Source: Geosiphon pyriformis (Eukaryota > Glomeromycota > Glomeromycetes > Archaeosporales > Geosiphonaceae). Taken from it: a DNA stretch of 64,000 bases. Both the position numbers and the translations under genes were made by a program. Shown here piece by piece: positions 13,341-44,414 of the stretch. The stretch spans positions 726,604 through 790,603 of the forward strand of contig JAAOMT010000226.1 in assembly GCA_016748015.1 (NCBI GenBank), written 5' to 3'. The notes under the pieces were generated by a model that was not told the DNA's origin, did no database searches, and was given only the letters and a program-made list of their open reading frames with translations. How positions within the stretch are numbered: the first letter of the stretch is position 1; each line of letters begins with the position of its first letter.

Positions 13341-13766
13341 ATGTCTTTAAGTTTAAAAAAATTTTCATTGGCTTTTACTTTAATTCTCTTTATTATCATT
13401 TTGTCCCATGTCTCGGCGGCACCAATACCAACCAAAGAATTTTTACCCTATGATTTCGATTTGCCCATAGACCCAAACAATGTTGGTTTTGGAAATGAAG
13501 GCTATGGTAATGTCGGATACGGTAACATTGGGAACAATAATGTTGGGATTCTTAATAGTGGTAACGAGAATGTTGGCAATTATAATGGTCTATGGAGTGA
13601 AGGTATCGATAACGGCGACGCCAATATCGGAAACGAGAATGGTCAAGGAAATAAGGGTATTCACAACGGGAGTAAAAATATTGGAAGTAAAAACGGTTCT
13701 TTCAATGCTGGCTCCACAAATGGTAATAAAAATCTTGGGAACGGGAATGGGAGACTCAATGGTTGA
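13341..13766 (+). CDS. Secreted N-x-G-x-x pentapeptide-repeat protein 1
   Basis: Single-exon gene for 141 residues. A signal peptide (KKFSLAFTLILFIIILSHVS, followed by AAPIP) leads into a spacer (about residues 30-48) and then about 18 repeats of the form N-x-G-x-x, for example NVGFGNEGYGNVGYGNIG and NIGSKNGSFNAGSTNGNKNL, ending in NGRLNG. The spacing matches pentapeptide repeats of the NxGxx type known from mycobacterial PPE-MPTR proteins, which suggests a beta-helical or fibrous fold; that comparison is structural inference only. Unlike its four paralogs in this window it has no Cys before the repeats and no introns. Function unknown; the signal peptide and lack of membrane segment or GPI signal point to secretion. 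The antisense/overlapping frame at 13480-13806 is a shadow. Confidence 0.85.
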   Translation: MSLSLKKFSLAFTLILFIIILSHVSAAPIPTKEFLPYDFDLPIDPNNVGFGNEGYGNVGYGNIGNNNVGILNSGNENVGNYNGLWSEGIDNGDANIGNENGQGNKGIHNGSKNIGSKNGSFNAGSTNGNKNLGNGNGRLNG

Positions 13767-15459
13767 AATCGTTTCATGGATACAGTGCGCTTACACATAT
13801 GGGTAGAACTATATTGCATTTAAGAAACTTGATAGATGTTAAAAAGACTTTATGAAGTTTTCAATGCCGCAATCTTGGGAAACAATTAGTACAATATTTG
13901 AGATTATAAAAGTGTTTATTTTCCATTTTCAACTTTTAAAGATACAAGCTCTTTTGGAATGGATAGCTAGAATTTTTATTCATTTCTATTTATTTCTTTC
14001 ATATCTGGTGCATTGAAATTATGATCCTTGATTAGAAAAACATAATAATAGCTATGCAAGTTTTACGACCCTCTATTTTATGAATTTCATATGAGAGCAA
14101 AATAAATTTTGTATTAATAAAAACATAATTTTATTAAATTTAATCTTACGATTCCAAAGTATTGAGAATCACCATCAATTTCACATTGAAAACTATATAA
14201 TATTTGAGGGGCAACTTAAATTGTAATCTGACATGCTACCAAAATAAGGCTAAAGCATTAATTATTAAACATAAATTATTGACGTAATTACTAAATACTC
14301 TTTTCATGTTATAATATTGGTTTCCTTTAGTTTTGTGGCTTTGATGAGATACTTTACCATTCAATAATCCAATAAAACTTTAACGCTGCGTCCTAGTTTC
14401 TAATGAGAGCGTTAAATCAATAAAATAATATCCAAGTGACAGAAAAAGTGCTTTTGGTATTGTCAAAACTCATTCTAGTTTGAGTCAATAATGTTGTTAT
14501 TGAAAACTTTATTATTTTGTTTGAAACCTTGGATCTTTTAAAACGGTAATATTGGTCAAGAACTTTTTTTAATTCTTTGAAAACTTAAAATTTGAAGGGA
14601 AATTCCTAGTGGCGAAAATGTGTTGAATATTTCAATCGAGGTAAAAAAAAAGAAAATGAGCAATTTTAATTTCTGTGAATTTGTATAGAAAATATTTTAA
14701 AATTGTTTATAGCTATTCAGAATTTCTAAATACTTTCTAAATTTTCTTAAAAACATGAATGAGCTAGTTTTTAAAAATAACACTTCATTCAAAAATCTTT
14801 AATTCTCCTCTTTAAACTTCAGTTAAGATTTTAGAATTCAAAGTCCATTAGTTATTATTCTGACTTTGGACAAATTTCACTCTTAAAATTAAATTATGTT
14901 AAAAATTTGATTTATTTAAAATATCAAAAATATTAGTCTCGCAATATCATTGATCAGAAACAGTATTATCATAATTTGCTTAGTTTTCTTCTGGTAAACA
15001 TTTTAAATACCTGATAATTTGGAGCTGGAATACAGAACAGTATTGCTTTTTATTAATAAAACATTGGTTGACAATAGATCGATTACAAAATTAAAGCTCT
15101 CTGAAAAAGCAAAAAAGCCTTTTAGTATCAGTTATTAGAAAATTGTTTGAATTCTTTAATTTCTAAATCTTTCAAGAATAAATGTGATATTTTCTTCTAG
15201 CAAAAAATGTTCATGTCAAGAAGCTTGATCTTTTTTATATCTATGCAATATAAATCATTTCAAAAATACAAAAAATCTAAATTAAAGGATAGAAAATTTA
15301 TCAGAATAAAATTTCAAATTTGAATTTACTAAAACGAAGAATTTTTTCTAAAAGTTTAGTTAAAGTTTACAAACAAAAAAATGATAGAATTATGGATTGA
15401 AAAGTTTGTATTGTAAGAAAGAAAATATTTAAATCAACAGTTAAAACCATCGTCCTTTA
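13767..15459. other. Intergenic, no gene seen
   Basis: AT-rich spacer of about 1.7 kb between two convergent genes for secreted proteins. Frames are short and show no family motif. Confidence 0.5.
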
Positions 15460-16787
15460 TTAAATTATCGTCAATCCTAATACCACAATAGTCAAAATTG
15501 AAATGGCAGATCCGACTGAGTGAGCGATACCAATAGGTGCAGCAGCACTATGCTTTGTAGTAGTACTGTTTCCACTTTTATTGTCGTTATTATCAACAGT
15601 GCTATTCGTTCCGTTTTTGGATATTGGGCCGTAGGAAGGAGTGATGCTAATATCTTCAACAACATAGTTGGCAGAAGCTGGTTGATCTTTAGTTCCACAT
15701 CTATTTATAGAATAAAAAATTCAGTCTCAAGTGTTTTAAATATTCAATTTTAGCAAAAAATTTATTATGGCTCTTACTTTGAGAAATATGTGCTCGCGCA
15801 GGCTGTATTACATGCGCCTTTATCGACATTTGATACCTGAGGTATTATTATAAATGAAAGCCAATAAGAAACTGAAATGATCCGATATATTAATCAATGC
15901 ATAATAATTGAAATGATTTTAATACCCTATCACTTTGGCAAACAGCTTGACAAGCCTATAAAATTGAATGTTTTCAATGAGAGTTTCTTCAAAACCAAAA
16001 ATTTTAAGTCTCAAAAAATGGTTTTCATGAAGAATAATACTCACTTGACCTCTACCCGAACAATCTGCATAATTAATTGGCCATTCCTGTGCTTTTTGGT
16101 TAAAAAAATCCAGATAGTCAAAAACGAAGAATAATAAAAACCTGATTTTTCGAACTAAAAATATTTTTACCTTCAAAGTTGGGAATATGTTGAAGACAGC
16201 CACAGCCCCAACCTAATGTTGTGACGTTGCAAAAATTCTAAAAAGAAAATATGAAATTTTAGAATTGGGCTCAGTTCTAGCAAATGGAAAGTTGTCAAAA
16301 ATGAAATCATACTTACTCGGGGAGCCTATGAAAATTTAGTTCAAGATATTAAATTTCATTAGGTCAATATTATTATATTTTCATCGAGTTAGAAAAATCA
16401 AGATTTCGAGAGAGAAAAATTATCAGTTTTTACCTGTTTTTCATCACCACCACAAGTGGATGTACAATAGGCTTTATTAGCAGCGCAGAGAGCTTGACGC
16501 TCTGTGGTAGGCTTCATAGTAAGATTGTAAACAAAAGGAGGTATTTGATATGGTGGAGGTTCTGTCTGGCCTAAATAAAACAAGTGATGGAAATAAATTT
16601 TTATTCACGTTCAATTTTAAAATTGGAAAAGAGCCATGGGAAAGATTTCTGTCAGCGTTCATCAAAATATTAGCAGGTATAAGAATTCAAATATTTTCAA
16701 AATTCTAAAATTTCTAAGTATACCTTTGGCACTTTGGATCATAACACTAATGAGTGCCACCCAAGAAATAACAATGTATAACTTCAT
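15460..16787 (-). CDS. GPI-anchored cysteine-rich secreted protein (DUF7707-like)
   Basis: Eight minus-strand exons: 16787-16724, 16570-16434, 16325-16317, 16237-16171, 16091-16045, 15955-15926, 15836-15778 and 15700-15460; phases agree and give 217 residues. A signal peptide (KLYIVISWVALISVMIQSAKG) precedes a cysteine-rich domain (about residues 40-140) with the order RQALCAANKAYCTSTCGG, FCNVTTLGWGCGC, YADCSGRGQACQAVCQS, GACNTACASTYFSKCG. This Cys pattern and the CNVTTLxWxCxC block resemble the fungal extracellular domain I know as DUF7707; that link is from memory. A Ser/Thr/Asn-rich stalk with NGTNST follows, then a C-terminal hydrophobic tail (SAISILTIVVLGLTII) typical of a GPI-anchor signal. 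So it probably sits on the plasma membrane or cell wall. Exon 3 is only nine bases (Ala-Pro-Arg), with a clean AG before and GTAAGT after. Molecular function unknown. Confidence 0.82.
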
Positions 16788-17909
16788 ATTAAGAAAAGTA
16801 AAAACTTTAAAAGAGGATTTGATTTTAGGAATTAAGGAAAAGTGAATACTTGGTAATGAAAATTTTACAAAGGAAAACCTGCCAAAGAATTGACGTCGGT
16901 TTTTGAAATTTTTTGATGAAATTAATGAATAGGTTAGAATTTGACTTGTTATGAGGTTGAAGGTAGGAGTGAGGAAAAAGCAATGATAATAAAATCCATC
17001 GGGATGAAATCTGTCTATAAAACTTGTAGTGAATCGATATTTGTTTTCCATTTCCAATCACAGAATTAGATGTTAAATTAGTGGCACAATGATATGTAAT
17101 CACTGAAACGAAGCTGCATTTGTGTTCAATAGAAATATAACCAATACTTTACAAGGCACATCTCCTATGTTGGCAATTTTGGAAATTCTCGGTGCTCTCT
17201 GTTAATCTTTTTGATACATGCATTAAGAATTTAATTCTTCCATTATCTTCTCGAACGTTATGTACGAATTATTCGAAGTCTGAACTATTTGCACAACACC
17301 CGAGATTTTTTTTTCAAAGATAAATATATCCTTTAATCAAATTCTTGCAACCATTTTATTTATTTGTATTTCTTCGTTAAAATCTGGTTCAAAAACTAAT
17401 AGTGGTCATGGGAAATTTTCGTTCAGATTAATCTAACAATAAAAAAAGGTGCTTTAAAAAAATAAAATTCAAGTATTACGTAAGTCTATTGATAGGAGGT
17501 TTCAATTATAAATGCGCAAAAATTTATTTGATCTTAACCAATAGAAACCTAAATTTCCTCATTTTACAAAATTTTTGCTCAATCCTAAATGCAAAAAATT
17601 AAAGTTTATTACAAATTCCAAAAAAACATAATTATATTTTTAATTTAAAGACTTTTATTTACTAAAACAAAAATGTCAAAAAGAAAATTTTTATAAATAG
17701 CAGTATACTGGTTTCATAAAAATTCTCAAGTTGGAATTAAATGTTTTATTCAATTTTGGACAGAGTATTACAATCTAATAACTATTTTTAACATTTAGCA
17801 CGTTATTTTTTTATGTTTTGTATCTTAATACAAGGTAAAGATTTTGATTTCTTAAAAATTTTCAAGACTAAATTTTTAATTTTCTTATAATAAAAGATAA
17901 ATATATGCT
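16788..17909. other. Intergenic, no gene seen
   Basis: Promoter side of the GPI-anchored gene, then AT-rich sequence up to the Fanzor relic. Minus frames at 16662-17103 are open but hydrophobic and without motif; they partly read through the first intron of the GPI gene and are not credible genes. Confidence 0.5.
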
Positions 17910-18670
17910 ATGGCCTTAAAAAATAAGTGGTCTTATTTACACAAAATTATGTCCGAAAGTAAATTTAAACATCTTCAAAAAATTATTCATTTTCCTGGGT
18001 TTATGAAATGTACATTTTCTATTGATACTGGCATTTGTACACTCTTCACTTGCTATTTCCTTTTTAAAGGTTTGGACAAAGCCGACTTTGGCGACATTAG
18101 ACAAATTTCTTATTTGTGCAATTATATGGATTCTCTCATATTTTTCACTTGCAAGTTTGGTGCAATCATTATCCTGCAATTTAATGTGTTAGACATAATA
18201 ACTTAAAGGATTAAAAAAATTAAATAAAAGACTCTAGAAAATGCTTTCTTGGGTACATTACCATTCTGATTGCCAAGGATGAAGATTTGGGAGTCCAAGT
18301 TGTCATTCAAAATGAGGCATATACATTCAAGACTTGTAGTTGGTACGATAAAATAAAGATCATCGGAGGGCTCAAAGTTTGATAGTGGGAAAATCTAAAT
18401 TAAAGCTACATAAAATTTTATCTTTTTTTGAAAATCTTGACTTTCAAGATTTTGATTGATCAATTAGTTGAAAGTAAAATTTGCTGCTATTTGATGTGGA
18501 AAGGGCTCTTGGATGAGCTTCATAGAAAGATTATAAAATCTTTCTTTACTACCGGAGTCTGAACAAAATGGAGGTGTGAGTCTTTTATTTTCTGAAATTG
18601 TGCCTTCTTTTACCATTGTGATTATGACGATAGCATTTTGGTTTTGATCCCATCATAGAAATCGAGATCA
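17910..18670 (+). pseudogene. Fanzor (eukaryotic TnpB-like nuclease) relic, rearranged
   Basis: Three plus-strand pieces resemble the C-terminal half of Fanzor/TnpB proteins. Piece one (17910-18206) contains SIDTGICTLFTCYF with the RuvC-I Asp at 18024-18026, then FGDIRQISYLCNYMDSLI, the family block that follows RuvC-I. Piece two (18240-18382) reads MLSWVHY and, after a stop, NEAYTFKTCSWYDKIKIIGG, which matches the TSKTCxxCG zinc-ribbon region with the second Cys replaced by Tyr. Piece three (18499-18561) reads LLDELHRKIIKSFF, which normally lies between pieces one and two, so the copy is rearranged or two decayed copies overlap. In intact systems these are RNA-guided DNA endonucleases carried by transposons. 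No full RuvC set, no intact frame and no element ends are visible. It is dead. Confidence 0.72.
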
Positions 18671-18902
18671 ATAAAGCCATCAAGACAGAGGGAGTCACGC
18701 AGATTTTGAACTTTCGATATTAACAACCCCAATAAATCTTTATATAAGATTTTATATGCCATTCTTAAAAGTAAATTTGACTCATTTAAAAATTTAAAAA
18801 TATGCAGAAACCTAAAACGAATTTGCATGTTTAAACACTTTTAAAAATCAAGATATCAAAGGTTTGTCACTTTTTAACAAATAAACTTGACATTTGTTTA
18901 CT

Positions 18903-20097
18903 TTTTACGACTCCCCAAAATTATAATATTGTTGTGTAAGAAAAATAATACCCACTTGTAGATAGTTAAACGAAATCGAAAGGGAAGATTCTGGCATACA
19001 TGGAAACGCTAAAATCTCAAAATGCTTGTACGTTATCCCACAAGAATATGGCGCTTGATTGAGAAGTATCAAAGAACAGGAAAACGTGAAACTTACCACA
19101 TTCTAAAGGAATAGAAATTCTTAGCAACCACGAAAAAGATTTACTAGTGTGTAAAGCCAGGGAAAACGACATGCACTACTCAATGAAATTGTCAACAATT
19201 TAGGTCTAAAAATGTAGTTTGTCAACTGCCGCAAATGTACTCTACAACTCTGGACTTTGCTCACGTATCGCAGCAAAAACCTTATATCTCAGAAACACCT
19301 GCCTACACTCGTGTTAAGTGGTGTGTAAGAAAAAAAAATAAAACCGTTCACGATTAGGCAAAAGTCATCTTCTCTGATGAGACGAGTATGGAATTGGGAA
19401 GCAATCACGACAACCAAGAGTTTGGCGGCATGCTAGCGAAGAGTTTAATACTAATTCCTTAGTCCTTACTCTAAATAGTAGGCGAAAATCCATAATGGTT
19501 TGGGGGTGTTTCACGGGAGGATTCAAACGACCATTGGTATTTTGTGATGAATACAAAAAAAATGTTGAAAAATAAATGCAAATAGTTACCTTGAAGTCTT
19601 AATAGCTACCTTGAAGTCTTAATAGCCATTATATAAAATAAAATTAAAAAGCTATATGAAAGTAAAAAATCATGACAACCAAATTTTCTTCCGTTTCAGA
19701 ATGTAATTAAGTTGTTAACTGGACGCTCCCCAATTTTTCAGCAAGATAACGTACTGATTCATACTGCAAAAAATATCTAACGGAAAATAAAATTACGACT
19801 ATCACTGGCCGGTGAATTCACCAGACCTGAATCCAATTGAAGCTGTTCAAGGACAATACCCAAAAACACGAAGTATGTGGTCGAACTTAAAATTGCGCTA
19901 AAGGAGGAAGAAATTCGATACCTCTGTTCTCGATGAAGTTATTCCCTCAATGCTAAGGAAAATTGAAGGAGGATTTTGAGGGCGGACAAAGCATTAAATC
20001 ATGTATAATTTTTATTTCGTAAAAAATTAAGTAAATCGGAAAGTATCAGAATTTTTGTGTCCAATTTTGAATCGGGCGTTACTTTTTGGGGTATTGT
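18903..20097 (+). mobile_element. Decayed Tc1-like transposon
   Basis: Plus-strand fragments of a Tc1 transposase broken by stops and frame changes. About 19045-19110 reads RRIW RLIEKYQRTGKRET in the usual N-terminal position; 19308-19420 reads RVKWC, TVHD, AKVIFSDETSMELGS with the first catalytic Asp; 19733-19770 reads PIFQQDN with the second; downstream a remnant of the third-acid region (SPDLNPIE-like) is present near 19820-19850. Weak inverted ends (ttttacgactccccaaaa at 18903 and its degenerate counterpart ending near 20097) fit an element of about 1.2 kb. No intact frame remains. It is distinct in sequence from the Tc1 copies at 4.6 and 40.1 kb. Confidence 0.72.
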
Positions 20098-20154
20098 AAA
20101 ATATAGATATTCATAGGGCACATCGGCTATCGGAAAATCGTTCCACACAAATTA

Positions 20155-22598
20155 TTAAGATTCCCTTTTTAGTTTGCCTAAATAATGCCTAACATTTTCT
20201 TTTTTGGCAAATTTGGTGATCGCATATAATGCAGCTTGGGAAGTCTGAAAAATATTCATGACATTTTAGTCAAGAGAATTGAGACAATCAACTCCACAAA
20301 AACATACCACACCAATTGCTTCTTCGCTAACATTTTCCAGTGTATCACACGCCTGGTGGTAGCAAGGATCAAATGGGGCATTGGCAAATCCCCCAAACGT
20401 GTGCCTTTGGTCCTCAGTTTTTCGGCCCCCAGCTCCAGTCAATACCCCACCTAAAAGATCGATTTATAAATTGTATTGACCAAGTCAATCTCATTTCTTA
20501 GCAAATTGGGTATAAAAGAGCTCAAATGCTCGTAAATTACTAATAAAATGCATCATGCCTGATGGAATTCCATGTTCCAGGAATGGCAGAAAGTCACTGC
20601 CAGCTAACATATCAATCAGTTCATATGACTCGTGGGCAGCCTTGAAGTACTCTTCAAACACATTTTGTATTACTATCGAAGCATTTCGCACATCTGATGG
20701 CGCGTCTTCTCCCTTATGAATCTACAATATGTAACTTAAAAATTAGCAAAATATTACTTCATAAAAGTCAAAGCCAAAATCAGGGATCCTCATATACTCA
20801 CAAACGGGACGTAATTAGGACTTCCTAGCATATCAAAATTAAGATTCATAGCAATTTTTTCGTCCTCACCGCTCATCATGGCTTCTCTGATAAAATGTCG
20901 CGATCCTAAGAGTCCGATTTCTTCTGCGGCCCACCAAGCAAAAATTAAGTCATTTTTTGGCTTGAAATCAGCACGTTCGATGGCAAGCAAAATTTCTAAA
21001 AGAGTGGCCGATCCGGATGCGTTATCAACTAGACCTGCTCCAGCTGGTACAGAATCCAAGTGTGCGCCAAAAACAAGGGTATTTTCCTTTTCGGGACCAT
21101 CTCTTAGTAAGCAAATAACATTAAACGTGTCAGTCACAGTTATCTTTGTGTAAGTTTGAATGTCAACTTTTATTTCTTTTGAGAGAGCGAGCAGTTGTCC
21201 AAGTGAGTATGAGGCCGCAAGAACCGGTATTTTCATCAAAGGATCTGAAAGATATTAGCATATTTCATTAATGCATTGTTTTTAAAAAGTTCTAAATGAA
21301 ATAAATACCTCTTTCTTTCCAATCAACCAGTCGAACCCGGTTGTATAACAGCGTTCTCCGTGCTGGGGAATTATAAAAAATTACAGCAGATGCTCCTTTC
21401 TTTGAGGTTGTGAAGCAAGACGCAGATAATACGTTAATTATAGCAACCCATAAAGCAAAGACAATTAACTTGCTATACCTGTTCAGCCTTGTAAGCTGCC
21501 TTCCAAAAGTCACATTTGCCTCCTTCTTGAATCAATGCAATCTTATCTTTTACTTTGTCCCAACCATTTTCATTGCATCCAGATTCTGGTATAATCACTA
21601 CCTGCTGTTTTGAAAGTGTTGCTGACTCCCCTCCATATCTCATACCTTAATCCAGAAAAAGTATCCATTAAATAAATTTGGCATATTTAAACAAGAATTA
21701 AAAAAGCTTCTTTTTAATAACCTACTCCAGAAATCCACTCCGCCTTGATAAGTAACCGTCCCCTTTTTATGACGGTCATCATCATCATCATCATTATCCG
21801 GAAGAAAGGTGACATTTAATTCGGCTTCTTTTATTTTTTCCCAAATAGGGACTTTGAAATACTGTAATTTAACTTCACATCGTGTATTCTTCTTCAAAAG
21901 AGAGATAATGTATAGGGCAGACGCGTTATACCCAGCAGTAATGGAACGTGATGGTCTCTTAGTGGTATAGGCATAATTTTCTTCTTCATCGAATATCTCG
22001 GTAGATGCTTCGGAGATTGATGGGTTTGATTTCATTGATTTATTAAAAAATTTGATAATTTTTGATGAGTATAAAGGAATGGATGAGGTTGGAATTGTAT
22101 CGTTCTCGTAATATTGAGCAATTTTTTCAAACGCTTTCAAGTGTGCAAATATGTTCCGAGTAAGTTGTTGTGGCAGAATTATTTCTTTTTCATGCTTGCC
22201 TTCAGCTGTGAACAATTGAAAATTTTTTGAATCTCAGATAAATTGCATATTAATGTTGAAAATTCATTTTAAAACATTTTTCATTCATGACTCACGTCGA
22301 TTATGTGGCAAAAACAGAATAATACAAGTAATTGAAACTATAAAAACTAACAAGGCAACAAGACCATATGGTGCAGCTTTTACAGCTACCTCACGAGGGT
22401 TGTGTCGGTTACTTCTGTTATTTCGACGTGAAAGGAGGGGTGTTGGCGATGATTTCCGTGAGTTTTCTTCATCTACAGGATAATATTTAATTAATTTGGA
22501 GAAATTAAAGGATCAATTTAAATGCACTGTCAGATTTCACCTATAATATTGCTGCTGTTACTTCCCAGAAGTGGGGCGTTTTCCAACAAAGTAGACAT
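20155..22598 (-). CDS. M28 family zinc metallopeptidase, type II membrane protein
   Basis: Nine minus-strand exons: 22598-22541, 22472-22296, 22205-21726, 21645-21479, 21399-21309, 21244-20802, 20721-20559, 20450-20308 and 20244-20155, giving 603 residues. A basic cytosolic tail precedes one membrane segment (about 55-74, GLVALLVFIVSITCIILFL), so most of the protein faces the lumen or outside. A protease-associated region around 240-310 includes ALIQEGGKCDFWKAAYKAEQ. The M28 domain has the zinc ligands His386 (FGAHLDSV), Asp398 (DNASGS), Glu433 with catalytic Glu432 (WWAAEEIGLLGS), Asp462 (NLNFDMLGSPNY) and His558 (CYHQACD). It is therefore predicted to be an active aminopeptidase or carboxypeptidase of the vacuole or cell surface. 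The intron after exon 7 appears to use GC rather than GT as donor, because only that join restores the conserved IPSGG and TGAGG blocks. The Asp run near residue 220 is a GAT repeat. Confidence 0.9.
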
Positions 22599-22949
22599 AT
22601 GGTTGACTCGAATTAGTTTGTGCCAAAGTTAGGTGAAATTTCTTTAATTAGAACGAAATTTTATTTTTACTTTACACTTTTATTTTGTTAAGGATAAAAT
22701 AAGGTTCCGCCGCTAATTATTGTGAATTTATACGCCTGCTGCTTTTAAGGGTCACGAATTAAGCAAACATGATTATATTCGGAATAGCTCAGATCTTGAT
22801 GGAAGTTTCCACAAAAAGACTGGAAATTAATTGAAGATCTTGAACTTTACATGCACAGATCAAGGCGATCCTAATCACATCTCGAAAATATTGAATCCTA
22901 CTTTCATTTCACCCCTTAAGTGTTTTCAATTACAGAATTTTAGATATGA
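22599..22949. other. Promoter side of the M28 gene, no gene seen
   Basis: Spacer upstream of the peptidase start codon. No distinct motif can be supported. Confidence 0.45.
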
Positions 22950-23165
22950 GGCTTGCGGCAATAAATCCAGACAAAGTGAGGCTGCCTTCGGCAATTTTGG
23001 CTTTTCTTTTTTAGCACCCAGAATATAATCGCTGTTATCCCTGCTATCGCCAAGATTGCTGGGACTTCTCATTCTCTAATTGTTGCTTGGTTTGTTCTAA
23101 TTCAATCTTTAATTCTTTAGTTTTATGGCAAGCATCTTATTCTTCCATTTTTTATCAATTTTTTT
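22950..23165 (-). pseudogene. Possible relic of a coiled-coil/membrane protein gene
   Basis: On the minus strand the stretch 23165-23050 reads, with one frame change, HKTKELKIELEQTKQQLENE, a heptad-like charged coiled coil, and a little further 23045-22990 reads PAILAIAGITAIIFWVLKKK, a good membrane segment followed by positive residues. Stop codons lie between and the frame changes, and no start or splice site is evident. GC content is visibly higher than the AT-rich block next to it, which supports former coding sequence. I do not recognise the family. Confidence 0.35.
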
Positions 23166-25020: not shown

Positions 25021-25054
25021 AAGGGAAGGGGAAGGGGAAGGGGAAGGGTAAGGG
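25021..25054 (+). repeat. G-rich GGGGAA tandem tract
   Basis: Four to six G-runs of three or four separated by AA or TA (gggaaggggaaggggaagg and onward). Such spacing can form a G-quadruplex. It lies about 300 bases beyond the stop codon of the DPBB gene. The repeat unit is not a permutation of TTAGGG, so I do not call it telomeric. Confidence 0.7.
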
Positions 25055-25350
25055 TATAATTTACAAGTTTTAATAATACAAAAAAAGATACATTAATTTT
25101 AAGGGAATAAAAGACTTACTACCTAGTTTTTTTTCGGGGGGTTGAAAAAGAAAAAAAATTTGAGTGTTTAAACAATTCATTTGTGTTTGACGAAGTGTGT
25201 GTTATGTGTTTTTGTTGCACGGAAAATAATGAGATAAGAATACCTCAAAGGTGTCTGTTTTGAGGATTTTTGCAAGATTTTAAGAGCAACAATGATTTCC
25301 ATTTTCCGAGTGAAGCGTAAATTGAACTTTTGAGTTTTCCGCTTTCTATT

Positions 25351-26217
25351 TTATATGTAACTCCAAGTGATTGAGATACGACCTTTTGATGGGTCTGCAA
25401 GTTGGTTGAACACAACTGGCGCCATATCAACGTCTCCACTCTTGCATTCTGGGCATCGATCTTGGATAGTAGCAGTTGCGGATTTACCCTCATGATAAAT
25501 TCTGATTTGTTTGCCACACAGACTGTTTTTATTGGGGTTTCCATTTGGGGTAGATGGATCAAAGTCAGGTGCAGCCATGGCAACCACTGCATCATTATCG
25601 CCGTCAGTTTGACCACACGCACCAAGGCCTGGGTTATAGTAAGTACCTTCGCCTGATCTTGAACCACTACCGCCAGTTGATGAAGCCACTGGTTCTTTGG
25701 TTGGCTGTGGAGCTTCAGTTGTGGTTGGTGCTGGAGCTTTAGTTGATGAATGTGTGACAGTGGGCTCGGGAGTGGGCTCAGCAGTTGGCTCAGCAGTTGG
25801 TTGTGGAGCTTCTTGAGTTATCGTTTCGGTTTCAACAGGAGTTTCAGCAGGAACAGTCTCAACAGGAGCTTCATTAGGAACGTCTTCAGCAGGGATTTCA
25901 ACAGGTTTTGATGCTTTTGGATGACGATTCTTGGAACGATTTTTGGAATGATTATTCGGGAAAGTTGATGTTAGAGGAAAATCAAATGCTGGGAGGACCT
26001 CAGTATCTGAGAAATTAGGAATATTCAGTTGATGGCCCTTATGTTTCACTAGCTTCAAAGAACTTTTGCAATTTTTCTTGCCACCAGGACATTTTTTCGA
26101 ACTTTTGGTCGATTTTTTGGCCCTCTTTCTTTTAGGTACTGGGCTGGCAATAATGGACTCGACTATGAGAATAAGAATCGTGAATAGGAGGATGACTTTA
26201 CCGAGAGTGAACTTCAT
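25351..26217 (-). CDS. Secreted double-psi beta-barrel (RlpA/expansin-like) protein
   Basis: Single-exon gene of 288 residues. Signal peptide (GKVILLFTILILIVESIIAS), then a Lys-rich region with KKCPGGKKNC, then a long Thr/Pro/Glu-rich low-complexity linker (about 100-185) likely to be O-glycosylated. The C-terminal domain (about 190-288) is a double-psi beta-barrel: GTYYNPGLGACG, the DAVVAMAAPDFD block, CGKQIRIYHEG, ATIQDRCPECKSGDVDMA and the ending GRISITWSYI. The Asp in DRCPEC and the DMA motif match the barwin/expansin fold used by fungal loosenin-like proteins, which loosen or bind wall polysaccharides without clear hydrolysis. Fungal proteins of this layout are secreted and act on fungal or plant walls. 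The gene is complete from ATG to the WSYI end. Confidence 0.9.
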   Translation of the reverse strand: MKFTLGKVILLFTILILIVESIIASPVPKRKRAKKSTKSSKKCPGGKKNCKSSLKLVKHKGHQLNIPNFSDTEVLPAFDFPLTSTFPNNHSKNRSKNRHPKASKPVEIPAEDVPNEAPVETVPAETPVETETITQEAPQPTAEPTAEPTPEPTVTHSSTKAPAPTTTEAPQPTKEPVASSTGGSGSRSGEGTYYNPGLGACGQTDGDNDAVVAMAAPDFDPSTPNGNPNKNSLCGKQIRIYHEGKSATATIQDRCPECKSGDVDMAPVVFNQLADPSKGRISITWSYI

Positions 26218-28163: not shown

Positions 28164-28195
<32 letters not shown>

Positions 28196-29693: not shown

Positions 29694-29695
29694 TA

Positions 29696-30723: not shown

Positions 30724-30755
30724 ATTTATTTATTTATTTATTTATTTATTTATTT
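30724..30755. repeat. TTTA tetranucleotide microsatellite
   Basis: Eight tandem TTTA units. Confidence 0.9.
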
Positions 30756-31197: not shown

Positions 31198-31198
<1 letters not shown>

Positions 31199-31228
<30 letters not shown>

Positions 31229-31243
31229 ATGATTATGATGATG
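31199..31243. repeat. GAT trinucleotide microsatellite
   Basis: Tandem GAT units with two interruptions, in non-coding sequence. Confidence 0.9.
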
Positions 31244-32775: not shown

Positions 32776-33441
32776 TTAATAATAAACCTTGGGGTTATGA
32801 TTGCCATTACCATTACCATTGAAATCACCATTATTATGATTACCATTGATTGAGCCTAATATTATTGTTTAAAGAGTAAGAATTATTCAACGAGCAAATA
32901 TTTTGGATAAAATTACAAATAAAACTTACCATGCCAATCACCAATATTACCATTTCCATTATTACTACCATTAGCAATACCATAATTGTATGATCCATTA
33001 TAGGAACCATTATTGCTTCCAATATTATTGTTACCGTTATTTGAACCACTTGCCGGGTCTGAACTTCCTATTCCATTATAAGAGCCATTATTGCTTCCAA
33101 TATTATGGTTGCCATTGTTTGTACCCGAGTTACTGACACCGTTGTTACTTCCTATATTTTGATTTCCTCCATTGCCATTACCGATATTACCTTTACCAGT
33201 GTTACCACCTTTAATGTGAATCAACAACAAAATATTTAAATACAGGTTTTCTATTGATACCAAATTAAGTATTTATCTAAAAATCTAACTTACATCCGAT
33301 ATCATTAAAGGTTACAGTGCATTGGCTAATATCGTAACCAGATAAATTTTTTTTTGTTTGAACAGGTGCTGCTGAAACATTTAGCAAAGCAGTAAGAGAA
33401 ATGAGAGTGATGAAGAAAAGAGTAAAATTTTTTAATGACAT
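32776..33441 (-). CDS. Secreted N-x-G-x-x pentapeptide-repeat protein 2
   Basis: Three minus-strand exons (33441-33294, 33208-32930, 32855-32776) give 168 residues. Signal peptide (LKNFTLFFITLISLTALLNV then SAAP), a short linker with one Cys (QCTVTFNDIG) and a second Cys at the repeat start (CGNTGKGNIGNGNG). The repeat body is N-x-G-x-x with NIG, NNG and SYNG variants, and a short insert GSSDPASGSNNG. It ends in a Asn/Gly/His stretch. It is the closest paralog of the gene at 43732, sharing the DPASGSNNGN insert and both intron positions. The first intron splits the Cys codon after its first base, whereas in the plus-strand paralogs it splits after the second base. Function unknown; likely secreted. 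Confidence 0.85.
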
Positions 33442-33586
33442 TTTTCCTGAATTTTGTGGTTAGGGTTTATTTGATTAATTCTTTGAGAAAATGAAATAAA
33501 TTAAAATAAAATAAACTTTTTTAAGCTAGGAAAGGTAGAATTGAAAGCGTATTTAAAGATTAAAAGACAAGTTTCTTGGTTAAATT

Positions 33587-33616
33587 GGGGGGTGGGGGGT
33601 GGGGGGAAGGGAGGGG
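33587..33616 (+). promoter_or_regulatory. G-rich tract upstream of a repeat-protein gene
   Basis: Five G-runs of four to six separated by single T, or AA/A (ggggggtggggggtgggggg and onward). It lies about 145 bases upstream of the start codon of the divergently read gene at 33441 and could form a G-quadruplex in or near its promoter. Regulatory role is inferred only from position. Confidence 0.5.
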
Positions 33617-36440: not shown

Positions 36441-37011
36441 ATGGCACCAAAATCATTTTTCGCTTTCTTTATCTCCATCGCTCTGTTTGCATTGACCTCG
36501 ATATCGGCTGCACCAGTTCCAACTGGCTTGAGTAATTGTCATACTGAAGTGGGTGATGTTGGTTGGTAAGTAGTGTGGAAAAATTTTAAAATTTATAATC
36601 CCGAGTAAAATTCAATTTTTAAATTTTGATTCATTTCTAATATTAAATATCAACAACATCAACATCAACAGTGGTAATACTGGACAATCGAACGTAGGAA
36701 ACAACAACGGTGGAAATAATAATGTCGGTGACTATAATGGATATGCAAACACTGGAGTCGATAATGGTAGCAACAATGTTGGTAGCTATAATGGTTCATG
36801 GAATAGTGGTTCAAGTAATGGAAACAATAATATTGGATACTGGAATGGTTCATTAAACGGTGGTAGTGGTAATGGAAACAACAATAGAGGCAATTTTAAT
36901 GGTAAGCTTGTTATAGTTCCCCTTATTTATCTCTTTGAAATTATTCTTACTAAATATTTTTTCTATATTCCTATTTTCCCCAACCCTATAGGAGTAGGGA
37001 ACGGAAATTAA
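36441..37011 (+). CDS. Secreted N-x-G-x-x pentapeptide-repeat protein 3
   Basis: Three exons (36441-36565, 36672-36901, 36992-37011) give 124 residues. Signal peptide (FFAFFISIALFALTSISAAP), linker VPTGLSNCHTEVGDVG, then the second Cys at CGNTGQSNVGNNNG and repeats of the N-x-G-x-x kind (NVGDYNGYANTGVDNG, NIGYWNGSLNGG). The last exon codes only GVGNGN. The first intron splits the Cys codon TG|T; the second is phase 1 in a terminal NG, at the same place as in the genes at 43732 and 32776. The linker CHTEVGxVGC is nearly identical to that of the 43732 gene, so the two are close paralogs. Predicted secreted; role unknown. Confidence 0.87.
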
Positions 37012-38335
37012 TAAATGAGTCTCAAAAATTCATAAGACCAGTTTCCCCCTGATAAAATTAGCATAGACGATCTTCTAACATTGTTTTGCAAACTTTTTTT
37101 TTTCTTCTTTCGATTCTTGACTTTGTGTAACATTTATTTTGAAACCCTTTTTAAAAATTTCCTTAATCCGAAACTGGATTAAATAAAAAAAATCTTTTAA
37201 CAACGATTTTCTCTTGCAAGTTATATCATTTCCAAAAAAAAATTCTCTTTTTGAAAATTGACCCACCCTTTTACTTATTGTTGTATACAAACAAAACAAA
37301 ACAAAACAAAACAAAAAACAAAACTTTAATAAAAAATTTGTGAAACCAGTTTTGACTCTTTGAAAATTTTAAATTTTTTATTGGGACAAATGTTTTGTTT
37401 CTAAACGTAAAAAGCACCTTTACAATTCAAAATATCTCTGATAAATTTGTCGAACGTAGATATTTTATTTCATGATTCTCTACTTCAATTATGAAAGCAC
37501 ACGGAATCTTATTCTCACAAAATAGAGTTTACCAATCACTTGCATAAATATCAAAGATAGTTTCTAAGTTTTCAAAGGAAACCTGAATTTTTTGTAATTT
37601 ATCAAGTTTTTCTTTTCTATCAACTTGAAAATTCCACAGAGTTCAAATTGATAAAAAGATTTTTAGATTTTCAGAAGAAAAGTGTGTAAAATCGATCTTG
37701 AAAAATAATGATTATCTCATAGCCCATCCAGGAACCTGTTGGATGAGAGGCTGATTTTTTAATCAACCAACCAACTTTCTTTTTCATTTTACGTGGCAAA
37801 GTCTGGACTCTTATTTCCAAGATTTCGATGAACAGAAGGAATATACTAATGGCTTAGAGTTAGAACCTCAATCAGAATTTTTTGCACTTTGAAAGAAGTT
37901 GACCAACATTTAGGATTCCAGAGTTCAAAAATCGGCAATAAAAGGTCATAAGAATAGGTGAAATATTTATAAAAAATAAAAATAAAAATAAAAAAAAGAA
38001 AAAGAAAAAGAAAATAAAAATAAAGAGAAACGAATTTCACGTTCAAAACTTTATCCAATTTTTTTTTTCAACAAATGAAATTCACAAAGCTACATAACGG
38101 TCATGAAAAATTAATTAACCTTCTAATAAACTAACCAATTATGACAATCCTACCAACAGTGCCTTATCCTAAAGTGAAATTCTCGCTTCTTTTTTAAAGG
38201 CTTAGTTTGACACAGGTAAGAGATTATACAATAATTTTTCTATAAAAACAAGGCCTCTCGAGTTTTTCCAAGGACACTCAAGCAATTTGTTTATATTCAT
38301 TTGCATTCCATATTTTTTAAACTCGCAACAAAAAA
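37012..38335. other. Intergenic, no gene seen
   Basis: AT-rich spacer with a CAAAA repeat near 37290-37315. A short open stretch near 37785-37890 reads FTWQSLDSYFQDFDEQKEY on the plus strand and might be a gene relic, but nothing confirms it. Confidence 0.45.
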
Positions 38336-38653
38336 ATGTCACGAACCATTTTCACATTTTTCCTTCTTGCTTTCATTGCTCTTGCCGCTTTTTCTTCGGT
38401 CTCTGCGGCTCCATATTTAGTTAAACGTACTTGTTCAGCGGACGCGAACAGTATTGGCTGTGGTAATACCGGTAAAGGCAACATCGGGAATAATAATGCA
38501 GGAAACAATAATATCGGCTTAAATAATGGTTTTGGGAGCACCGGATTCAATAACGGAAATACCAATATTGGCAATAACAATGGTAGGTATAACGCTGGGG
38601 ATAACAATGGAAACAAAAATCTTGGTAACAACAATGGATCCTTTAATGGTTGA
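38336..38653 (+). CDS. Secreted N-x-G-x-x pentapeptide-repeat protein 4
   Basis: Single-exon gene of 105 residues. Signal peptide (TIFTFFLLAFIALAAFSSVS then AAP), a Lys-Arg site (YLVKR), linker TCSADANSIG, then CGNTGKGNIGNNNAGNNNIG and further N-x-G-x-x repeats to the end NNNGSFNG. The two Cys flanking the linker match paralogs 2, 3 and 5. The KR pair just after the signal peptide could be a Kex2-type processing site, which would leave the Cys at the mature N-terminus. It lacks both introns present in paralogs 2, 3 and 5. Function unknown; secretion predicted. The antisense frame (38317-38634) is a shadow of the repeat. Confidence 0.87.
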   Translation: MSRTIFTFFLLAFIALAAFSSVSAAPYLVKRTCSADANSIGCGNTGKGNIGNNNAGNNNIGLNNGFGSTGFNNGNTNIGNNNGRYNAGDNNGNKNLGNNNGSFNG

Positions 38654-40125
38654 AAGGTAAAAGTTTAATAAACCTTTTTCCAAAGAATAATTGGCATCTT
38701 CCGTCTCATGATTAATAACTTACTAATATTATCTAATGAATGTTACATTAAAATATTTTTATTCAAAGAATTAGCCCTAGTTGTTGAATTTTTTCCTTTA
38801 TAAATAAGTAAGATTAATTTAAAGATTATAGCTGATTTAAATTTTCCACGTGTGAATATCCTTTTTACTTCTTTCCCAACATAAGAAATTATTCATATTT
38901 AAAATGAAGATAGTTTTTGAATGATCAACTAAAACATGTAAATAAATTCTCTTTGGTAAATGGTAAAAAAAAAAATAAAGTTTGGAATTTCCCCCATCCT
39001 GAATTGCGTTTAAATCATGTATATCATTCAAAATTTATGCTAACCCAAAAACTAAGATATTTAAGGATATTCTATATAAGGAGAGAAAATTTTTTTTTCA
39101 TAAAATCTAGTAAAAATTATTATAAATTTGACTTCAATAGGTAGGCATTGTACTTTGTAAAATATAAAACCTGAGATAGGAATATATTCTCATATATAGT
39201 TTTCTTTAGGATACTTTTTTAATGAGCCTAGAAAACAGTACATTTTATCGATTAGAACTAAAATTAATATCGATTAGAAGTAAAATTAAAATTGACATTG
39301 ACAAATATTTGAATTTGTACGCATCAAAAATTTAGAAATTTCCCGTTTTTTAGGATAGCTGATAAAAGATTTTAATTAGATAAGGGATTAATAATAACAT
39401 TAAGTATTTTTATTTAATAGCTTATTCAGCTCTGTGGGTATTAGTGATTTAGATTTTTTTTGTTCTTTTATTAGTGCATTAATCATGTTCCAGCTTAATT
39501 TTTTTTCTTTTTTGATAGTGTAAATTTATTTAATAAAGGAGATAATTTTTTTCATAAAAGCCTCTCAAAACGAATCTACCAAAAAGTTTTTTTATTGCTA
39601 ATATTAGAAAGTCTATTTCAGATAGAACATAAAAAGTTGAATATTTTTTTGTAAATAATAAGCAATATTTATTAACTTTGCTCATTTAGAAAACAAATAC
39701 ATTAATTGATTCTATTAAGTAGTGAAGTGTGTTTGTTTGTCTTAGCAAAGGATTATGATCTAAAAATATAAATAAAGATTATGGCATTAAAAAAAGGTTG
39801 AGATTATTTGGATGTTAAAACTGTCCAAGCTTGATTTCATTTTTGGAAAAGTTACCAATCTATCTAACTGACACTTACAAACTATGAAGATTTAGTTCTC
39901 AGAACAGTTATAAAATTCTTGTTATTTGTAATCTAATAAAACATACAAGATTTAAGCAAAAAAATTAATATTTGCATTGATAAAATAATTCTCCAAATCT
40001 CTCTAGACGAAGTTTTTGAAAGCGTAAGGTTAGCATTGCATTATTTTGAAGACAAAATAAAGATTGCTAAAATATTAAAAATTTTATTAAAGCTTTATGG
40101 GTGCAAATATTTTCTTATTATTATA
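38654..40125. other. Intergenic, no gene seen
   Basis: AT-rich spacer up to the TA target site of the Tc1 element. No family motif in any frame. Confidence 0.5.
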
Positions 40126-40127
40126 TA

Positions 40128-41160
40128 CAGGGGGGTATAAAAAGTATTGGACACTTAATATAATATATAAAAAAGGCTATATATAGTAATACCATTATCA
40201 ATTTAAGCCATAATTTTTTTTATAATTACTTATAGTTATAATCTACAAATCAACATAAATCGCGTCCTTGTAAAACACAACAGTGGATCATACGCGTATA
40301 TATAAAATATCAAACATTCTTGTTGTGAAAAAATTTACCGCATCAAATGTGTCTTGGAAAAGAACTTTCTGAATACCAAAAAAGAGGGATTATTTCAGCA
40401 ATAAAGTTAGGACATACAAACAGTGAGATTTCCACGACTATTGGATGTTCACGTTCTTCTGTAATACGTGTATGGAAGTCATACGAACTAAAAAAACTTC
40501 CTAAAAAACGAACGGGCCGACCACAAATTCTTGACAAACGCGCACGTGAACAACTCAAATATTCAATAATGGAGAATAAAGAAACCCGCTGCCAAACTCT
40601 TTCTCAAATACGATTGAATTTTATTAAAGATACCAACAAATCTATTTCTATACAAACTATTCGAATTGGTTTAGCTCAAGAAGGACTTCGCTCGTGCATT
40701 CCTCGTCTCAAGCCATTAATTTCCAAATCAAATAAAGAAAAACATTTACAATGGGCTTGTACTTATGAAAATTGGACAGTAGAANNNNNNNNNNNNNNNN
40801 NNNNCTTACCTCTTCAAATGTTGAATTACTTCCTTGGCCAGCACAAAGTCCTGATATTACTCCAATAGAAAATCTTTGATCATATATTGAAGTTAAAATT
40901 CGTCAATGTAATTCACAACCCTCAAATATTGTACAATTGGAATGGTGGGTTAAGGAAGAATGGGATGCGATACCTGTAAATTACTATCGTAATTTGATCA
41001 AGTCTATGCCATGTCGAGTTCAAGCTATTCTTGAAGCAAATGGGGGTCAAACAAAATACTAACATGTATTTTAATATAATAATAAAAAATTAACGAATTA
41101 TAAGTTAGTTCTTTTATATAACATATTATAAAAGTGTCCAATACTTTTTATACCCCCCTG
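40128..41160 (+). mobile_element. Tc1-like transposon with perfect inverted repeats and an internal assembly gap
   Basis: Flanked by TA (40126-40127 and 41161-41162). The left end caggggggtataaaaagtat and onward to ggacac is repeated in inverted form at the right end, 27 bases without a mismatch. The inside holds a transposase in two parts separated by 20 N at 40785-40804. As drawn it is 1,033 bp, shorter than intact Tc1 elements (about 1.3-1.7 kb), so the N run almost certainly stands for several hundred missing bases. Perfect ends suggest recent movement, and multiple copies may be why the assembly failed there. Confidence 0.95.
40347..41062 (+). pseudogene. Tc1 transposase, interrupted by gap and one stop
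   Basis: The first part (146 residues before the N run) has the helix-turn-helix DNA-binding region: ISTTIGCSRSSVIRVWKSYE, a GRP(Q)-type linker (RTGRPQILD) and the second helical domain, ending WACTYENWTVE just before the expected first catalytic Asp. After the gap LLPWPAQSPDITPIENL carries the third acidic motif and the C-terminus runs to TAA at 41062. The first two catalytic Asp motifs lie in the gap. Directly after IENL the conserved Trp codon TGG is replaced by TGA, a G-to-A change that would stop translation. So this copy is probably inactive even if the gap were filled. Confidence 0.88.
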
Positions 41161-41162
41161 TA

Positions 41163-41926
41163 CATATTGGTTTCTTGCCTGATTATTTCATTTGGAAATA
41201 CTTAGATCACACTGGTATTATTTATGAAATGTTTGTGCCTTTTAAAGGATTATAAGTGTTTTTAAAGTTTTGAGATCACAATTTTCAATGGGTCAAGGTA
41301 ATGTGATTCTCCTGTGTTGGTGTGTATCAAAATTTCTCCTTTTTAAGGTATACTTGCATATTGTTTTATTTGTTTTGTGGAAATTCTGGTTTCATTTCTT
41401 GTATATTGACAGAAATTTTTTTATTTTGTACACATGGAATATAAAAAATGCTCAAGTGATTTGGAAGTTTTTATAAAGAAAACTGTTTTTAATGTTATTT
41501 ATTGGTGATAGTGCAAACTTTTTACAATGCAAAAAATATTTACGCCAAAAAAAGCTGCAGTGATATTTGAAGTGATTTAATACAAAAACTTTAAAAGGAG
41601 AAAGTTCAAAATAGCAATAATTTTTGTAGTTTAGGGAAAATATTATGGGAATTGGTAACAGCAAGAAAATTCATCGAATCCTCTCAAAATTGTTTAATTT
41701 AAAAGTATCTTTATTGATCAGTTTTTTTATTTAATTGATATTAAAAACTTTTATGTAAGCCAGAACTCTCTTTGACTACCAAGTCACTGAAATTATATTC
41801 TCCTGCTTGAGGTAAGAAGCCAAAAAAGGGTAACCAAAATTTATTAATTTCTTAACATTAAAATCAATCAATTCGCTTGAATAAAAATTATAAGAAAAAT
41901 CTCTTCAATATATTAAATTTTAGGCT
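41163..41926. other. Intergenic, no gene seen
   Basis: AT-rich spacer between the Tc1 element and the 3' end of a Myb-like gene. No credible frame. Confidence 0.5.
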
Positions 41927-42475
41927 TCATTCCTCTTTTACACCTTCAGCTTTTATCTTTTCAGTACTTTTCTCCGGAGCTTTCTCCATGCGACGAAGCA
42001 AGGTTAACCATCTACCCCTGCATCCTTGTCGATTCCTAGAAGGGAAATACTGGTTGGCAATCTCAGCCCAATTTACGTCTTTTGCAATGGCGTGAAATAG
42101 GATTTTATCTTCTTCTAACGTCCAAGGTGTAGCCTTTGATCGTTCTTTTATAATTTCTAATCCCTTTTTGGGTGATTGATTCTTAGGCTTTCCAATCAGT
42201 TTGCGTGTTTTTTCTTTGGCTAGTCTTTTACGCTTTTTTGTTGGTGACTTTTCAGGCTGATTAAAAAATTATTAATATTTGGAACAGCAAAGGGAACCCT
42301 CAACTTATTTAATATAAAATATTTTTACCTTGTTTACCCAACTATCTGTTTCGTTGCACTTTTCTATCTTAACCTTGCTGGGTGCAGCCTCGTCTGAGCC
42401 ATAGTTTTCAAATTCCTCTTGACTTTCTGCTTTCTCTTCGACTTCAATATTTCGTCCCTCATCGTTGTATGGCAT
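41927..42475 (-). CDS. Myb/SANT-like DNA-binding protein A
   Basis: Two minus-strand exons (42475-42329 and 42256-41927) give 158 residues. The N-terminus is acidic (VEEKAESQEEFENYGSDEAA). A strongly basic stretch (KSPTKKRKRLAKEKTRK) that could be a nuclear localisation signal follows. The C-terminal domain (about 90-140) is a single Myb/SANT-like repeat: PWTLEEDKILFHAIAKDVNW, EIANQYFPSRNRQGCRGRW. The first Trp, the acidic EED, the hydrophobic core and the RNRQGCRxRW recognition helix match the two related genes at 46197 and 60151. Members of this fold bind DNA, often as regulators or domesticated transposon proteins. Specific target unknown. An AG at 42504 and open frame LRNCRRNL upstream of the ATG leave open an extra 5' exon. 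Confidence 0.82.
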
Positions 42476-43731
42476 TAGATTTCTACGACAATTCCGTAAT
42501 GCTGAAAAAGATATTAGACAGAAAAAATAATTTTTCTAATAATTTTCCTTTTTAATTTTAGTACTAAAGTAGGGTAATTATTTAAACCAAAAACAAAATA
42601 TACTTCCTAATTAAACTTTTTATTTAGCTGACTTTCTTTTAATCGCTCATATCAATCTCTTTGAATAATATTCTGATATTTTGTTGTTTTAGCACTCGAA
42701 ATTATTTTAAAATGGCACTTTTTTATTAAGCAAAATTTTTCTTCGCCATGTTTGATCTATATTTTATAACAGTGAATCCCACTGCGTTAATATTTTGATA
42801 AATTTTATTCTGAAATCAATCAGCCCACGAGATTTTTACATGGGCAACTGTTGATTGCTTTAAAACCTTTAACAAATTAACTCTTTTTTTCTATTTTATC
42901 ACTCTAAGATAAGTTTTAAAAATAATTAGACGAAATTTAGGGGTATGAGATGATAGTTTGTTCATTGAAAATCCCAACCTAAAGTTAAAAGAAACTTTTA
43001 ATTTAACACAACAACAAAATTTTAATTCTTTGTTGTCAATATTTCTTCTTAATAAACCATCTGGTAAAATACAGCCTATTTCGCTGCCTTAATTAAGGAC
43101 TGTAGGAAATTTTTTAACGGCGGTCTTGTTCAGAATTTTAGAAAAGTTCATTATTTCGCTGTTGCTTAGAAAAAAAAATGCGTCCTGATTAGTATACAGT
43201 TAGGCGAAATTCAAATATCAATTATCGATTTTAGAAAAGCTGATTATTTTGTAGAATAATCGTTTTACTAATTATATTTGAGGTCACAATGGACAAGTCT
43301 AGATTTGGTAACAAAAGCCACCCAATTTAATTTCTTGTATTTTCTTCATCGCCACAAAAATTTAGTGGGTAAAATTCTTGATTTGGGCTTGGCGTTAATT
43401 ACTTTTAAAATCATTTTATGGTTAGCACTGCCACAAATTTGGTATTAGAAATGGAGATGGCTATGAAGATTATGGTAGGATTCAATGACGAGCTTTAATA
43501 CAAGATTGGATAAAGCCTGATCATTCAATAAGGATTCTTTGTAAATAACATAAAAGGCATTGTCATAGGTAAGCCTCAATATACATAGCAAAAGTTTCTT
43601 TTAAAAGTGGTATGAGTGAAGCCGTCTTTTCTACTTTTTTTCTATTAACAAACTATTCAAAAATCATAATTCTCTTTCAATTCATCAAGAATTTCCAACA
43701 TTATTCAAAACTTTGATTCATTTTTACAGAA
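42476..43731. other. Intergenic, no gene seen
   Basis: Shared upstream region of the minus-strand Myb-like gene and the plus-strand repeat-protein gene. No motif I can support. Confidence 0.5.
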
Positions 43732-44414
43732 ATGGCCTCAAAATTTTTTTCCTTTGCTTTAATAGCTTCAATGATGTTTGCATTATTAGCTATCGTCTCG
43801 GCAGCACCACTTCCTATTAACAAACGGGGCGAAAAAATCTTTGGAAAATATGATCCCAGTGAATGTCACACAGAGGTTGGCAATGTTGGCTGGTAAATAC
43901 AATTTGACGTAGCATCAGCAGTTTTTATACTCATCTTTTCAACTCACTTCTCATATTTTTCTTTCTCCTAATTAGCGGTAACACAGGAACATGGAACGTC
44001 GGCAATGGCAACGGTGGTAGCAGCAATGTAGGCAGTGATAACGGAGCTGGAAACTCGGGTACTAATAATGGAAACCATAATATCGGTAGTGGAAATGGAT
44101 CTTGGAATGGTGTTGGCAGCAAAGATCCAGCCAGTGGATCAAATAACGGAAATTACAATATTGGAAGCTATAACGGTTCATGGAACGGTTCCAACAATGG
44201 TGGGGTTGCAAATGGTAGCAACAATGGTAATTGGAATTTTGGTAGCTGGAACGGTATGTCAAATAAATTCTAATTATTTACATAAGTGATAGCTAACCAT
44301 ATTCAACAAACTCACTAAATTCTATTTTTCTAATCTTTTTTTTTTCTTATACTATTTATTGCCTCTTATTTCACAGGGTCACTCAATGGTAACAACAACA
44401 GGCCCAAGCCTTAA
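43732..44414 (+). CDS. Secreted N-x-G-x-x pentapeptide-repeat protein 5
   Basis: Three exons (43732-43892, 43976-44253, 44377-44414) give 158 residues. Signal peptide (FFSFALIASMMFALLAIVSA then AP), a Lys-Arg site (PINKR), linker ECHTEVGNVG, then CGNTGTWNVGNGNGG and a body of N-x-G-x-x repeats including NIGSGNGSWNGVGSKDPASG and NIGSYNGSWNGSNNG. The last exon adds GSLNGNNNRPKP. Intron one splits the Cys codon TG|C, intron two is phase 1 in a terminal NG; both positions recur in paralogs 2 and 3. Trp occurs in many NGSWNG and NWNFGSWNG units, unlike paralog 4. Predicted secreted. The overlapping frames at 44035-44289 and 44062-44262 are shadows. Confidence 0.88.

Follow-up and report, generated by a model that had tools for sequence, protein, structure and literature searches.

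In several early-branching lineages of Glomeromycotina, secreted proteins of unusual composition have been described under the name of glycine- and asparagine-rich (GN-rich) intrinsically disordered proteins (IDPs). They are known from Ambispora leptoticha and Paraglomus brasilianum, and the GpRIC1-3 proteins from Geosiphon pyriformis (PMC8786786, citing Hoffrichter 2018). According to the parts of that source on which we draw, they are apparently confined to Glomeromycotina, are low in proline, contain 12–38% asparagine in most A. leptoticha proteins and 33–39% in those of P. brasilianum, and are treated as disordered, tandem repeats in them being few or imperfect. The GpRIC proteins also include a KR dibasic site. 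The RiAGL proteins, which appear in the same parts, are likewise secreted repeat proteins of Glomeromycotina with co-located genes. Repeat proteins processed by Kex2 (KEPs) have in addition been reported in R. irregularis (PMC6339444, in the part cited here). The subject of the present work is a set of five genes, G1 to G5, coding for secreted-looking asparagine/glycine repeat proteins in a stretch of 64,000 nucleotides of G. pyriformis (assembly GCA_016748015.1, contig JAAOMT010000226.1, positions 726,604 to 790,603 of the forward strand), referred to below as the window. It lies on contig C318 of the genome that was searched (124.7 Mb, 406 contigs; contigs are given C-numbers and individual loci L-numbers). 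Its mean G+C content is about 28.6% (mean over 32 blocks), and a mean of 27% is given for Glomeromycota in the part of PMC11134847 used here.

The five genes are real, and their coordinates in a first-pass annotation of the window, made from the sequence alone, are exact to the base, position 32776 being the 3′ end of the minus-strand G2 (Table 1). They include six GT-AG introns of 74–123 bases, two each in G2, G3 and G5, whose spliced frames are open. In these three genes intron 1 interrupts the second Cys codon of the GCGNTG motif and intron 2 a Gly codon towards the end of the repeat. The order of elements in the alignment is M...[VI]SAAP, a short linker, C-x8-C-G-N-T-G and the repeat. As first annotated, a signal peptide ending in [VI]SAAP is present, by inspection of the alignment, in all five proteins and the two-Cys linker (C-x8-C with GCGNTG) in most of them, namely four of five, G1 being without Cys.

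The repeat body itself had been described as made of N-x-G-x-x units. This applies to a short initial run of pentads, but the remainder alternates two bricks, NxGxx (five residues) and NGxx (four residues), and the spacing of the glycines, which in some members begins as 5,5,5, is mostly 5,4,5,4 across the body. The two bricks are combined in register, either as 5+4, a 9-residue unit with a period of 18, or as 4+5+4, a 13-residue unit with a period of 26; "pentapeptide repeat" is too simple a name for this arrangement. Coverage was compared with 2000 composition-preserving shuffles per protein for 11 proteins. Two successive NxGxxNGxx units cover 0.24–0.74 of the body in the window five, and for none of the 11 proteins did any shuffle (0 of 2000) attain the observed coverage by the 9-residue unit. 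Runs of three pentads account for only 0.15–0.30 of the body in the window five, a value which is nevertheless above chance (matched by 0 to 11 of 2000 shuffles). A description by the 9-residue unit alone is also incomplete: 4+5+4 coverage exceeds it in G2 (0.49 vs 0.35) and G5 (0.54 vs 0.24) and also leads in the members on C359, C308, C283 and C227, while 5+4 leads in G1, G3, G4 and two genes on C234. In accordance with this division autocorrelation peaks at lag 18 in G1, G3 and G4 and at lag 26 in G2 and G5; in G1, lag 5 comes close to lag 18 (0.36 vs 0.40). Among 19 non-overlapping 18-mers, retrieved with a pattern that allowed I, V, L or F at position 2, this position is Ile or Val in every case, and Asn occupies position 17 in 16. 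At its equivalent nine residues earlier, position 8, Ser or Val is commonest and N is not among the residues shown (17/19). Finally, an extra loop of 7–8 residues is found at a single alignment site in five of 11 rows, a placement which would resemble that of loops in solenoid proteins.

These genes were first presented as a local family of five. They are indeed clustered in the window, but they are members of a genome-wide set which includes both a family with the linker and a larger class. Searching the genome yielded 25 matches for G5, 8 for a C234 protein and 14 for G4, which were merged by hand. The linker family occupies 12 places: the five window genes, one each on C283, C108, C359, C308 and C227, and two on C234. 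The C108 copy, which was described only, looks disrupted, with an in-frame stop and no in-frame start. Intron 1 occurs at a slightly shifted place in the C359 and C308 genes, and these two together with the C283 gene have an intron where intron 2 of the window genes lies. A degenerate DNA pattern for the linker was found at 14 places (reversed control, 0): eight are linker-family members, four fall in two much alike loci of the 13-residue class on C242 and two are chance matches, those on C117 and C330 being taken as such since a repeat frame is absent. The two C234 genes (L011 and L009, about 1.3 kb apart on opposite strands) form a recent inverted duplicate, with 0.14 synonymous substitutions per site (dS), whose repeat lengths already differ (177 vs 144 aa).

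The 25 matches to G5 divide into 13 that belong to the linker family and 12 that do not. Among these 12, a match on C369 was weak and interrupted by several stops and was set aside. The others lead to secreted-looking proteins built on the unit NGxx-NxGxx-NGxx, with lags of 13 and 26. A search with one protein of this 13-residue class gave 57 matches in 38 merged places on 22 contigs; these include one linker-family gene (C283), several places with stop codons and some that match the signal peptide alone, and match counts for families of this size are lower bounds. There are thus indications of a sister class of up to about 37 places. Lag 13 is among the three strongest in the fetched frame at 23 distinct places, all of which have a hydrophobic start, as do 31 of 44 listed segments, the other 13 including exons and cut frames. 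The longest frames are those on C367 (960 aa) and C277 (1075 aa). On C242, an NG-repeat protein is present in two very similar copies about 54.7 kb apart, L046 and L048 (the latter partly masked), which carry ten or eleven dibasic sites and in this resemble Kex2-processed precursors.

The family had also been thought to be expanding. This is not supported for the window. Over the ten pairs of window genes, the proportion of synonymous differences (pS) is 0.69–0.83, that is saturated, and that of nonsynonymous differences (pN) 0.24–0.36, pN being lower than pS in all ten. Because silent sites are saturated while the proteins are conserved, the window genes are old paralogues kept for their protein and do not represent a fresh burst. 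Elsewhere in the genome, the C234 pair has dS 0.14 and a nonsynonymous value (dN) of 0.09 (dN/dS 0.63), and the C359/C308 pair dS 0.46 and dN 0.16. The Asn and Gly codons are a synonymous mix inside each gene. In a tree of 11 proteins (200 bootstrap trees), six of eight inner branches are open and the window label needs three changes, a number which 154 of 500 shuffles equal. The window five form a single clade in 0% of the bootstrap trees, but the tree is poorly resolved and they may still share one origin.

The reading that we favour, with a probability of about 0.4, is that these are secreted solenoid proteins, some of them trimmed by Kex2, which coat or cross-link the fungal surface. The signal peptide would be cleaved off and, in some members such as G4 and G5, a Kex2-like protease would trim a short pro-piece at Lys-Arg. 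The two cysteines could then close a small cap, and the Asn/Gly body could wind into a thin beta-solenoid whose coils would each take up about 10 residues in the pentads, 18 in the 5+4 and 26 in the 4+5+4 arrangement. In such a fold the conserved Asn and Gly would occupy the turns, the Ile or Val of N[IV]G would point inward, and the faces would carry variable residues, in many cases Ser, Asn, Tyr, Trp or Phe. Many distinct members, perhaps side by side, might in this way provide the fungal wall or the host interface with a coat or with cross-links. A Lys-Arg following the signal peptide is found in four of ten proteins checked (G4, G5 and both C234 genes), and the mature part of each window protein contains one to five N-x-S/T sequons. 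What the data establish is the genes and their structure, the layout of the repeats, the genome-wide family and the constraint on the proteins; secretion, Kex2 trimming, the disulphide, assembly, location and role are inferred.

A beta-helix had been raised as the structure to look for. The AlphaFold model of G1 (6 rows; predicted local distance difference test, pLDDT, 49.9; predicted template modelling score, pTM, 0.27) has three-residue strands E76-78, 94-96, 112-114 and 130-132, spaced exactly 18 residues apart. With the G1 repeat body (11 rows; pLDDT 56.7, pTM 0.45; five models at 31.3–56.7), short strands lie 10 apart in the pentads and then 18 apart (E42-44, 60-62). This spacing hints at a beta-solenoid, a fold which is weakly predicted here; the models are compatible with disorder as well.

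Several observations weigh against the solenoid coat. Both models are of low confidence and equally compatible with a disordered chain. Foldseek gave no match in PDB at E<=10 and, in BFVD, nine at E<=10 of which none reached E<=0.001. The composition of the mature window proteins (N 25–34%, G 22–26%) is of the type treated as disordered in the relevant part of PMC8786786. The most recent pair, C234a/b, is weakly constrained (dN/dS 0.63). Moreover, a GPI (glycosylphosphatidylinositol) anchor is judged unlikely because no hydrophobic C-terminal tail is visible in the window five (...RLNG, ...KVYY, ...GNGN, ...SFNG, ...RPKP), which leaves wall attachment without a demonstrated route. The same composition and the low pLDDT values (49.9, 56.7) speak for disordered, elastic or amyloid-forming surface proteins acting by flexibility or aggregation, as proposed for the AGL and GN-rich IDPs of Glomeromycotina. 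We consider this alternative somewhat less probable than the solenoid coat: a 9/18 or 13/26 register with position-specific residues, preserved while silent sites are saturated, exceeds what composition needs, and the loop recurs at one site in 5/11 rows.

In kind, the window proteins are thus partly described. Like the GN-rich IDPs and GpRIC, as far as these are presented in the parts of PMC8786786 used, they form small families and have an endoplasmic reticulum signal peptide by inspection, a high G + N content and little proline (1.2–4.5% in the mature proteins); the Lys-Arg of G4 and G5 recalls the GpRIC dibasic site. By composition and predicted secretion they would belong with the GN-rich IDPs. 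The view that the system is undescribed can therefore be kept in part: GN-rich secreted proteins were already reported from early-branching Glomeromycotina, but the 9/18 or 13/26 layout, the C-x8-C GCGNTG linker, the intron positions and a genome-wide count were found neither in these parts of PMC8786786 nor among the literature matches listed. Among the titles and opening lines of abstracts listed, PMC8786786 alone was conspicuous. The part of PMC8778642 used contains no passage on pentapeptides or Geosiphon. The RiAGL proteins, according to PMC8786786 in the same parts, differ in being proline/glycine/alanine-rich with GPI signals.

The processing sites also suggest apoplastic effectors or Kex2-released signalling peptides directed at the plant or a symbiont. 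The proteins are small and secreted-looking, Lys-Arg occurs in G4, G5 and both C234 genes, a relative on C242 has ten dibasic sites between its NG blocks, and there is the precedent of the KEPs (PMC6339444, in the part cited). We regard this as unlikely. Lys-Arg and Arg-Arg are absent from G1, G2 and G3, and in G4 and G5 the single site precedes the repeats, so that a cut there would release the repeat body intact instead of short peptides; unlike KEPs, the window five have no dibasic sites between repeats and at most one site each.

In the first-pass annotation the repeats were likened to those of mycobacterial PPE-MPTR proteins. Both have NxGxx pentads, with which the repeat body of the window proteins begins, and the pentapeptide model PF01469 (Pentapeptide_2) touches G1 with 19.3 bits (E 0.0011). 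This is below its gathering cut-off of 26.4 bits and concerns one of three proteins scanned: among G1, G3 and G4 no Pfam family was above threshold, G3 matched nothing, other sub-threshold models were found only for G4, and none of the three matched the PPE domain. The mixed 5/4 bricks in 5+4 or 4+5+4 layout, the introns and the eukaryotic signal peptide are also foreign to that group, and kinship with it is barely credible. Flat regular solenoids are a known solution for ice binding, and ice- or mineral-binding or water-retaining solenoids were considered for this reason; the regular Thr ladder is absent and the x positions vary widely, which makes such a role very improbable.

Similar repeats were sought in prokaryote and viral collections. 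The prokaryote scans gave 23 (A3) and 587 (A4) stretches of which tblastn confirmed none, and phages and plasmids searched by tblastn with an NG protein from a phage gave none either; both are weak negatives since low-complexity filtering may hide NG repeats. For viral contigs, one of 149 stretches was confirmed. Two exact patterns gave 57 + 23 stretches in the viral collection, or 75 distinct loci, 38 of which have an NG-dense frame. These include three contigs with arrays of secreted-looking NG open reading frames (ORFs), L058 and L109 with a single short ORF, and others that are NG-rich by eye. The arrays lie at 2368-4125 of L041 (on a contig shared with L103), at 5013-6329 and 8543-9124 of L064 and at 496-1937 of L086 (reverse-complement coordinates). 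On each array contig the short ORFs number three or four; they have signal peptides of bacterial type, and many keep to the 13-residue register; the three tested had no Pfam match at E<=1. These ORFs stand side by side and share the NGxxNxGxxNGxx register with the fungal 13-residue class, but they are of bacterial type, lack the GCGNTG linker and are mostly NGNG. Convergence is the likely explanation.

Other features of the window are listed with the five genes in Table 1.

Table 1. The five repeat-protein genes and other features of the window (positions counted from its first nucleotide).
Feature	Position	Strand	Product	Introns	Characteristics
G1	13341..13766	+	141 aa	intronless	signal peptide ...HVSAAP; lacks Cys; N-terminal pentads followed by 5+4 repeats
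G2	32776..33441	-	168 aa	33209-33293, 32856-32929	mixed 5+4 and 4+5+4 repeats
G3	36441..37011	+	124 aa	36566-36671, 36902-36991	most regular 9-residue body
G4	38336..38653	+	105 aa	intronless	Lys-Arg (Kex2-type) site directly after signal peptide
G5	43732..44414	+	158 aa	43893-43975, 44254-44376	Lys-Arg after signal peptide; mixed 5+4 and 4+5+4 repeats
Thioesterase piece	2300-2728	+			palmitoyl-protein thioesterase
Endonuclease piece	8650-9456	-			DDE_1, transposase-like
Peptidase exon	20793-21236	-			M28 family (104 bits)
Predicted secreted protein	25351-26214	-			Pro/Thr/Glu-rich middle; C-terminal DPBB_1 (28.9 bits; cut-off 28.8)
ORF between G4 and G5	40347-40868	+			presumably resembles N-terminal part of a Tc1-like transposase (by eye); interrupted by masked bases
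Methylase piece	61638-62090	+			C-5 cytosine DNA methylase

Two features of the genome at large concern its identity. PF08354, a domain of fungal type I FAS, has no match in it, the control set giving a match in one of 14 genomes (Corynebacterium); arbuscular mycorrhizal fungi are reported, in the part of PMC11134847 used, to have lost genes of fatty-acid synthesis. Together with the low G+C content and the compositional resemblance to the GN-rich IDPs and GpRIC, this would place the genome in Glomeromycotina or a nearby lineage. A DNA query found 18S at a sole place (L131, 321-2137 minus, on C320, roughly 2 kb from the end of that contig). It has one mismatch each to the primers AML1, AML2 and AMDGR and none to NS31; with AMV4.5NF there are two, and with each of the four family primers and PARA1313 between three and six. 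A literature search on the primers gave nothing. The gene deviates from the universal sequence at usually invariant sites and may be a degenerate copy.

The broadest interpretation would be that some 35 to 50 secreted fungal proteins make up a new superfamily of beta-solenoids, assembled from two interchangeable bricks, NxGxx and NGxx, as 5+4 or 4+5+4 and serving as a major surface coat of an early-branching fungus of the mycorrhiza type, and that the 4+5+4 grammar also came about, through convergence or transfer, in bacterial secreted proteins whose gene arrays are carried by phages. We consider this rather unlikely in its entirety. Surface proteins of Glomeromycotina are little known, partly since repeats defeat assembly and annotation. 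With the simple grammar described here, of 5- and 4-residue bricks, 9/18 and 13/26 periods, one linker motif and intron positions that recur, the family can be found and counted in any genome, and whether such proteins are disordered or folded becomes a question that is directly testable on short, easily expressed proteins.

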